This document shows, one piece after another, positions 15,031 through 62,091 of a DNA stretch of 64,000 bases. Each line of letters starts with the position of its first letter. Within the stretch, counting starts at the first letter, position 1. The DNA is from Nitrincola schmidtii (GTDB lineage Bacteria; Pseudomonadota; Gammaproteobacteria; Pseudomonadales; Balneatricaceae). The notes below the pieces were generated by a model. That model saw only the letters and a list, made by a program, of their open reading frames with translations, was not told where the DNA came from and made no database searches. The stretch covers positions 1 through 64,000 of the forward strand of contig NZ_WBOL01000005.1 of NCBI RefSeq assembly GCF_008973715.1, written 5' to 3'. The position numbers and the translations under genes are program-made.

Positions 15031-15118
15031 GGAGGGATGGCTGAGTGGTCGAAAGCACCGGTCTTGAAAACCGACGAGTCGAGAGGCTCCCAGGGTTCGA
15101 ATCCCTGTCCCTCCGCCA
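15031..15118 (+). tRNA. tRNA-Ser (anticodon TGA)
   Basis: An 88-nt class II tRNA with acceptor GGAGGGA/TCCCTCC, a long variable arm, T-loop GGTTCGAATCC, encoded CCA, and anticodon TGA in loop CTTGAAA. The outermost anticodon-stem pair is C-A mismatched, which is unusual but not disabling. Confidence 0.96.
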
Positions 15119-15155
15119 AAGGATGAAATGTGTGAAGCGTTAGTTGTTAAAATGT

Positions 15156-15231
15156 TCCCTGATAGCTCAGTTGGTAGAGCAGTAGACTGTTAATCTATTG
15201 GTCGCTGGTTCGAGTCCAGCTCGGGGAGCCA
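15156..15231 (+). tRNA. tRNA-Asn (anticodon GTT)
   Basis: A 76-nt tRNA, acceptor TCCCTGA/TCGGGGA (one wobble), anticodon GTT in loop CTGTTAA, T-loop GGTTCGAGTCC, encoded CCA. Confidence 0.96.
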
Positions 15232-15260
15232 ACAACTTAACAAGCGCTAGGCAAATGAGC

Positions 15261-15336
15261 GGGTCGTTAGCTCAGTTGGTAGAGCAGTTGGCTTTTAACC
15301 AATTGGTCATAGGTTCGAATCCTATACGACCCACCA
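15261..15336 (+). tRNA. tRNA-Lys (anticodon TTT), copy 1
   Basis: A 76-nt tRNA, acceptor GGGTCGT/ACGACCC, anticodon TTT in loop CTTTTAA, encoded CCA. Identical in sequence to the next tRNA. Confidence 0.97.
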
Positions 15337-15353
15337 CTCATATTCGCCATCTT

Positions 15354-15429
15354 GGGTCGTTAGCTCAGTTGGTAGAGCAGTTGGCTTTTAACCAATTGGT
15401 CATAGGTTCGAATCCTATACGACCCACCA
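15354..15429 (+). tRNA. tRNA-Lys (anticodon TTT), copy 2
   Basis: A second 76-nt tRNA-Lys, identical base for base to the first and separated from it by 17 bp, indicating a recent tandem duplication or gene conversion. Confidence 0.97.
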
Positions 15430-58807: not shown

Positions 58808-60115
<1,308 letters not shown>

Positions 60116-60263: not shown

Positions 60264-61064
60264 TTAATCAGCGTTTTGTAGGTTCTTAACCAGCAGCTTA
60301 AACATTTTCGGATTGGCGGCGACAAGGCTGCCAGATTGGCGATGAGCGTTTCCGCCTTTGAAGTCGCCGACTAATCCACCCGCTTCTTGCAATAATAAAA
60401 TACCAGCATCCATATCTGTTTCACTTAGATCAGCTTGAAAGAAACCATCTAAACGACCCGCAGCGGTGTAGGCCAAATTGAGTAGCGCTGATCCGCCGTT
60501 AAAAAACTGCGCACCCGCCACACTGAAGCGATAAAGTTGTTTTTGGTGCTCTGCAAACGCTTCCTCACGGTTACCGCCTAAAGCAAAACCACAACCTAGC
60601 AGGGCTTGATGGAGTTGTTTAGTGCCGCTGACACGAAGACGTCGACCATTCAGTTGGGCGCCATTACCGCGACTGGCGGTAAATTCTTCACCCGTGACCG
60701 GGTTGATCACAACGCAGTGTTCTATTTTGCCATTCATGCGCGCTGTCATGCTTAGCGCATAAACTGGTAAGCCATTGGAGAAGTTGATTAGGCTATCAAC
60801 GGGATTGATCTGCCAATCGCAAGCGGTTGGACCTTCCCCAATCGCTTTATAAGCACCACTAAAAGCGCCTTTAAGCGTATGATGAGGGTACGCTTTTTGA
60901 ATTGACTGAGCGATGGTGCGCTCAACCTGTGAGCAAGTTTCAGTAATAAATTCAGCCGCACTGGACTGTTCGGATTTAATCAGGTCTAGGCGTTCTGCCG
61001 CACGGGCAATCTGTTCTCCGCCAAGGCGGGCAGCACGAAGTGCGATATTAACTATCGGTTGCAT
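60264..61064 (-). CDS. suhB: SuhB homologue with degenerate catalytic site
   Basis: This 266-aa protein is clearly the inositol-monophosphatase-like SuhB (MQPIVNIALRAARLGGEQ, LAYTAAGRLDGFFQADLS, and the usual position before trmJ). But the metal site is broken. The GEExG motif reads GAFSG (66-70), the IDPLDGTTNF motif reads INPVDSLINF (86-95; only D90 of the two aspartates kept, GT replaced by SL), and VDxxAE near 43 reads TCSQVE. D217 in SETD remains. It is unlikely to hydrolyse phosphate. In E. coli, SuhB also acts with Nus factors in rRNA antitermination, and that role does not need catalysis, so the protein may keep that role only. Confidence 0.85.
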   Translation of the reverse strand: MQPIVNIALRAARLGGEQIARAAERLDLIKSEQSSAAEFITETCSQVERTIAQSIQKAYPHHTLKGAFSGAYKAIGEGPTACDWQINPVDSLINFSNGLPVYALSMTARMNGKIEHCVVINPVTGEEFTASRGNGAQLNGRRLRVSGTKQLHQALLGCGFALGGNREEAFAEHQKQLYRFSVAGAQFFNGGSALLNLAYTAAGRLDGFFQADLSETDMDAGILLLQEAGGLVGDFKGGNAHRQSGSLVAANPKMFKLLVKNLQNAD

Positions 61065-61290
61065 CAGGTTAAGCGTCCAAAAATGTTCAAGAGCAAAAAA
61101 ATCATTATACGTTAGCGGCGCTCTGTTATCTATTGATGCAGGCCTTTTTCCTTCGTATCTGTTACTATATCGGGCTTATTTTTTCTGGGTTAGTTGTTTA
61201 ACTTTTGATTTTTTGGCCATTTGTTATTCATTTACTAGATGTTTCTTAAGCGATTTGTTTTTTAACTAGGTTGTCAGGAAGAGTTCAATC

Positions 61291-62091
61291 ATGTTGGATC
61301 AGATACGTATCGTCATGATTCAAACCACTCATCCGGGTAATATCGGGGCGGTGGCGCGGGCAATGAAAAATATGGGTCTTAACGATCTATGCATTGTATC
61401 ACCCAAGCGGTTTCCCGATCCTGAAGCGGATGCTCGTGCTTCAGGCGCTACGGATATTCTCGAGTCTGCTAGAGTTGTTGCCTCATTAGATGAAGCGCTT
61501 GAGGATTGTCATTTTGTTGTCGGTACCAGTGCGCGCGGTCGTCATATTCCCTGGCCAATAACCTCACCCAGAGAAATGGCCTCAGTAGCGGCAAGCTTGC
61601 AGCCAGGAAAAAGAATGGCGATTCTTTTTGGTCGTGAAGATCGTGGCTTAACCAATGATGAATTACATCGATGCCATCATCACGTACATATCCCGACTAA
61701 TCCAGATTTTAGTTCGTTAAATGTAGCCGCGGCTGTGCAGGTGATTGCCTATGAGTTGCGTGTCGCCAGTATAGAGAGTGCTTCAGTCACAGCGCCTCAG
61801 TGGGGTACTGATTGGGATATTGACCTAGCGGATGCTCGTGAGGTTGAGCTGATGTTTGAGCATCTTGAAAAAACTCTCGTTCAGGTTGAATTTTTAGATC
61901 CTAATAATCCAAGGCAGTTAATGACCCGTTTGAGGCGTCTTTTCTTAAGATCAGTGCCTGATAAAGTAGAAATTAACGTGATGCGTGGTTTTTTGACTGC
62001 CATTAATAAAACTGTGGCTTCTTTCAGTAGTAAACAAACCCTCTCTAATGATCAACACCCGCCATCCGATAAGGAGAAACCGCATGTTTGA
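61291..62091 (+). CDS. trmJ: tRNA (cytidine/uridine-32) 2'-O-methyltransferase TrmJ
   Basis: This 266-aa SPOUT-class methyltransferase modifies position 32 of several tRNAs. [22 protein letters not shown] and the knot residues [15 protein letters not shown] and [17 protein letters not shown] are diagnostic. GGAAGAG precedes the ATG. Its stop lies within the start of cysE (8-bp overlap). Confidence 0.95.

Follow-up and report, generated by a model that had tools for sequence, protein, structure and literature searches.

Background

In Escherichia coli, SuhB acts both as a Nus factor and as an inositol monophosphatase (IMPase). The wild-type protein binds the AR2 repeat of NusA with a Kd of 94 nM, and simultaneous mutation of K251 and L254 weakens this binding more than a thousandfold (PMC6614801). 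Expression of suhB is in turn kept down by the Nus complex, which acts on a boxA within the suhB 5' UTR (PMC5725501). According to two papers that draw on earlier studies, the IMPase activity is dispensable for relieving the effects of suhB mutations in E. coli (PMC6614801, PMC4807359), and the paper that named SuhB a Nus factor left open whether the phosphatase activity is at all linked to the rRNA role (PMC4807359). In Mycobacterium tuberculosis, SuhB dimerises upon Mg2+ binding (PMC2080633).

Here we analyze the suhB locus in a 64,000-nucleotide stretch of the Nitrincola schmidtii genome (hereafter, the window; Table 1). The original prediction for this locus, made from the DNA alone, was that the metal site of SuhB was lost at an intact gene, separating the structural role of the protein in antitermination from its enzymatic activity. 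Our analysis leads to a similar but broader picture, in which the window protein is, with high probability, the true SuhB of this bacterium that has become a pseudophosphatase and is retained as a Nus factor.

The suhB locus

The entire window protein matches the Pfam domain Inositol_P (PF00459), scoring 134 bits against a cut-off of 27. The CysQ model reaches only 24 bits. The top-scoring NCBIfam model is the SuhB equivalog PRK10757, with 200 bits, which is below the 332-bit cut-off set for the enzyme-type SuhB equivalog. The nearest solved relatives are the SuhB proteins of Pseudomonas aeruginosa (236 bits) and E. coli (183 bits), which are also, in this order, the top Foldseek matches of an AlphaFold2 model built from nine sequences (TM-score 0.81-0.88); these matches include the SuhB-NusA AR2 and rrn antitermination complexes. 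The model has a mean pLDDT of 83 and a pTM of 0.83, is weakest at residues 91-100 (the altered loop, pLDDT about 50) and 21-40, and predicts that the IMPase fold is preserved. Thus, full-length similarity, a modeled fold closest to SuhB structures and the trmJ neighborhood all place the protein in the SuhB orthologue group. Beyond trmJ, there are cysE-like and iscR-like genes, named from their translations. Among named species, those closest to this genome are N. lacisaponensis, N. tapanii, N. alkalisediminis and N. tibetensis, with Neptuniibacter more distant.

Table 1. Features of the window and their positions
Feature	Coordinates	Strand	Remark
suhB orthologue	60264..61064	(-)	266 aa, ATG start; IMPase fold, degenerate metal site
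GAFSG, residues 66-70	60855..60869	(-)	replaces GEE(S/G)G; E. coli E67->A, E68->F
INPVDSLINF, residues 86-95	60780..60809	(-)	replaces IDPxDGTTNF; E. coli D84->N, G88->S, T89->L; D87 kept
C44, within TETC	60933..60935	(-)	replaces conserved Asp (E. coli D44, human D47)
S34	60963..60965	(-)	replaces active-site-loop Lys (E. coli K34, human K36)
D217	60414..60416	(-)	human D220, E. coli D212; retained in this protein, predominantly Glu in its relatives
K256	60297..60299	(-)	E. coli K251, which contacts NusA AR2; invariant Lys in the family (110/110)
boxA-like element TGCTCTTGAACA	61084..61095	(-)	19 nt upstream of suhB ATG; candidate NusB/E site for autoregulation
TATAAT, candidate -10	61104..61109	(-)	just upstream of the boxA-like element; suggested by the sequence
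trmJ	61291..62091	(+)	divergent neighbor of suhB; adjacency conserved
purA-like gene	58823-60115		other flank of suhB; named from translation
Cluster of four tRNA genes	15031-15429		Ser, Asn, Lys, Lys

The two unusual motifs pointed out originally were reproduced from the open reading frame translation at 60780-60869 and lie exactly where SuhB proteins have GEEGG or TEESG and IDPLDGTTNF; the altered VD motif noted near residue 43 corresponds to the Cys in TETC. Relative to human IMPA1, the window protein carries the replacements K36S, D47C, E70A, E71F, D90N, G94S and T95L, so that the IMPase ligand set (E70, D90, D93, D220 and T95, human numbering) is incomplete. Two of the four acidic metal ligands are retained, namely, human D93 (residue 90 here, E. 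coli D87) and D220. The claim that the metal site was lost therefore holds for E70, D90 and T95, along with E71, D47 and K36, but not for D93 and D220.

An intact IMPase gene elsewhere in the genome, the search for which had been proposed originally, was not found among the PF00459 matches: there is no second SuhB, and the only other gene with this domain encodes the CysQ-like protein L001. This protein retains intact SEEG and DPLDGT motifs and is encoded away from trmJ, in contrast to the window SuhB, which lacks these motifs and adjoins trmJ. In another genome of the same family (G013, 2.2 Mb), the degenerate SuhB was the sole PF00459 match, and no canonical PF00459 phosphatase was detected. 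We also considered inositol synthesis as a source of the need for an IMPase and dropped this explanation: inositol-1-phosphate synthase is absent from all 23 relatives searched, including those with a canonical SuhB, and thus, inositol synthesis does not separate the canonical and degenerate groups.

Loss of the catalytic residues across the family and selection on suhB

The family to which the window belongs (“Nitrincola and relatives”) is presumably Nitrincolaceae. Almost all genomes of this family (115 of 117) encode SuhB, and not one of the 111 SuhB sequences, which represent 16 genera, retains all of the catalytic residues, that is, no close relatives with canonical motifs were found. The single canonical row among the 112 in our motif table was taken to be L001, with the motifs SEEG and LDPLDGT. 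The loss, initially described for a single locus, is thus real and extends to the entire family (and, as shown below, to other families). The usual family motifs are G(E/D/A)(Y/F)(S/T)G and (N/S/T)P(I/V)D(S/N/G)(L/I/V). The synteny with trmJ is seen at 106 of the 112 family loci, including that in the window.

We compared the 42 positions that are at least 95% conserved among 66 canonical SuhB proteins with the corresponding positions in 110 family sequences (E. coli numbering). Ten of these positions, K34, V40, D44, E68, D84, T89, D118, R183, D212 and A214, are retained in less than 20% of the family, and retention of E67 is down to 60%; most known active-site residues are among these ten. 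Both R183 and R184 are altered, which is a point against the reading as a retained Nus factor. The glycines and other structural residues are mostly unchanged, in agreement with the original view of a conserved scaffold, and D87 is kept in all 110 sequences, perhaps for structural reasons. One sequence (L024 in G022, genus g13) differs from nearly all others in the family in that it keeps the Asp at the first position of the second motif (VDPIDGI), the other catalytic positions being gone; this state may be a stage of the loss or a reversion.

Because dS is saturated between most Nitrincola species, dN/dS was estimated from close pairs only. In these pairs, the suhB values do not exceed 0.09, and in 4 of the 6 pairs in which both genes could be measured, suhB dN/dS is no higher than that of trmJ. 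The gene is kept under strong purifying selection in the family. Together with the uninterrupted frame in the window and the family-wide conservation, these values bear out the earlier suggestion that this is not simple decay. In the draft genome of Nitrincola sp. A-D6 (G002; L020/L137), suhB is frameshifted and contains stop codons, which could reflect either an assembly error or a pseudogene.

Distribution of degenerate SuhB in the order

Within the order, SuhB is canonical in f2, f4, f5, f9, f10, f11, f13, f14 and f36 as well as in most of f39, f44 and f8. A degenerate, trmJ-linked SuhB is present in every sampled member of six families other than that of the window (f6, f7, f20, f26, f37, f38). 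Three further families contain it in part of their members only, namely, f39 (genus g87), f44 (g59 and g74) and f8 (a single genome, G413). The replacements vary by family, for instance, RET and CVIDD in f38, RY and EIFHGY or EPFHGY in f37, FPLLG in f20, and DAIQG in f26. The f8 sequence (L156) is truncated where its contig stops and might stem from a binning error; G428, from the same genus, has a canonical SuhB. Among 40 representatives of families outside the order, chosen non-randomly as 20 weaker and 20 stronger matches, 39 are canonical. The lone exception (L170 in G509, family f63) is a trmJ-linked degenerate SuhB with the motifs EGEP and IQGIDPLANY.

To count the changes, we used a tree of the neighboring protein, TrmJ, which is blind to the alterations in SuhB. 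On this tree, the canonical/degenerate label requires 8 changes, of which 2 are forced by well-supported branches; f1 (the family of the window), f6, f7, f37 and f38 cluster together with weak support (SH-aLRT 83, drawn open). Two state changes are therefore firm, and several more are likely, as also indicated by the mixed states within f39 and f44. Change counts by themselves cannot tell loss from gain, but the rest of the class and the human IMPase show the canonical state, which indicates that the direction is loss, so the catalytic site of SuhB was probably lost repeatedly.

Predicted contacts with the Nus complex and possible control by boxA

Apart from the invariant Lys that corresponds to K251, the NusA-AR2 contact includes L254, which is conservatively replaced by Val in the window protein and is Leu in 89 of 110 family sequences. 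The NusA of the same genome (496 aa) has both C-terminal acidic repeats. A test of 26 genomes, in 22 of which SuhB is degenerate and in 4 canonical, showed these repeats in every case, in two copies except for G210, which has one. A boxA, CGCTCTTTAACA, follows the 16S rRNA gene in the spacer of the rrn operon, where the contig ends upstream of the 16S gene, before the leader.

The element upstream of the window suhB, or a close variant, precedes suhB in all 9 Nitrincola species that could be tested and is one position off the published consensus. The candidate -10 would place the transcription start just before this element. We scanned the 50 nt upstream of each gene for the published motif GYTCTTTAANA, allowing at most one mismatch, and found it for 43 of 145 degenerate suhB, 2 of 73 canonical suhB and 0 of 166 trmJ controls, compared to about 0.8 expected from shuffles, these counts being inflated by related sequences. 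Many genera of the family have no recognizable boxA-like element before suhB.

With its IMPase fold and the residue that contacts NusA AR2 both retained, the window SuhB most likely remains a member of the Nus complex (NusA, NusB, S10, NusG and boxA) on nascent rRNA, where it would aid rRNA transcription and folding. The gene itself may be autoregulated through its 5' boxA-like element, and inositol phosphates would no longer be hydrolyzed by the protein. Such a loss of the enzyme appears tolerable in view of the dispensability of the E. coli activity. By analogy with the Mg2+-induced dimerization of M. tuberculosis SuhB, the loss of the metal site may free the degenerate SuhB from Mg2+, plausibly abolishing any such dependence of the fold or the dimer, and plausibly lets the acidic cluster be neutralized (Asp->Asn/Ser, Glu->Tyr/Phe). 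Overall, the absence of the catalytic set throughout the family, the invariance of K251, and the presence of two-repeat NusA and boxA elements support the predicted split between the Nus role and the enzyme. That this SuhB persists as a non-catalytic Nus factor is, in our assessment, likely. At the level of the order, evolution seems to have separated the role of SuhB as a helper of rRNA transcription from its enzymatic role more than once; whether repeated losses produced a class of dedicated Nus factors free of metal, such that boxA regulation of the gene was maintained or reinforced alongside the loss of the enzyme, we consider evenly balanced.

Possible alternative roles of the altered protein

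The site could have been remodeled rather than lost, binding a small ligand or acting on another substrate through new conserved residues, for which C44, Y/F68, N/S84, D87, S88, N118 and E212 (E. coli numbering) are the candidates. Indeed, several replacements are conserved within the family: in the 112 family rows, C replaces D47 in 85, D93 is present in all and E replaces D220 in 74 (human numbering), and N occupies D118 (E. coli numbering) in a fraction of 0.90. Other families, however, have different replacements at the same positions and, to our knowledge, the metal-dependent phosphatases of the IMPase fold use the ligands lost here, which makes remodeling improbable. The retained role might instead be a different interaction of SuhB, with the RNA polymerase holoenzyme or the ribosome; such associations have been reported for the E. 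coli or P. aeruginosa protein, as cited in PMC6614801. The invariant K251 and the boxA elements before suhB point to the Nus complex, with which such a role is compatible, and we regard an exclusively non-Nus function as very unlikely.

Weak IMPase activity that would persist through D93 and D220, the two acidic ligands left in the window protein, complemented by alternative ligands, appears highly unlikely: E70, D90 and the catalytic-site T95 are replaced, and hardly any family member retains D90. Some ion binding is nevertheless possible, given that D93 is present in every family sequence and Glu70 is retained in 68 of the 112 rows. Drift of suhB to a pseudogene, or motifs created by assembly errors, as the broken frame in G002 might suggest, can practically be dismissed, considering the open frames in other genomes of the family, the same loss in 16 genera and the low dN/dS.

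Implications and comparison with characterized SuhB proteins

Returning to the reading that the window SuhB is a non-catalytic Nus factor, we found no prior report of natural SuhB or IMPase pseudoenzymes in the open-access literature, which is weak evidence of novelty because subscription papers were mostly outside this search. The family of the window and the further lineages that discarded the active site of a protein under strong selection can be considered natural separation-of-function mutants, which implies that the enzymatic activity of SuhB is dispensable over long times. The degenerate proteins show which surfaces are required for the remaining role and could be used directly to test complementation in E. 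coli. As a caution, these suhB genes should not be annotated as inositol monophosphatases.

The closest solved relative of the window protein, P. aeruginosa SuhB (PDB 8WDQ, 8WIP; about 46% identity, TM-score about 0.88), has canonical GEEGG and DPLDGT motifs and was crystallized with inositol-1-phosphate (8WDQ), whereas both motifs are degenerate in the window SuhB. E. coli SuhB (PDB 2QFL, 6IB7, 6IB8, 6TQN) has the same fold and aligns from start to end, but keeps the metal ligands and IMPase activity, whereas the window protein is devoid of E67, E68, D84, T89, D44 and K34. What the E. coli and window proteins have in common is the K251 contact, a NusA partner with two repeats and a boxA element before the gene.
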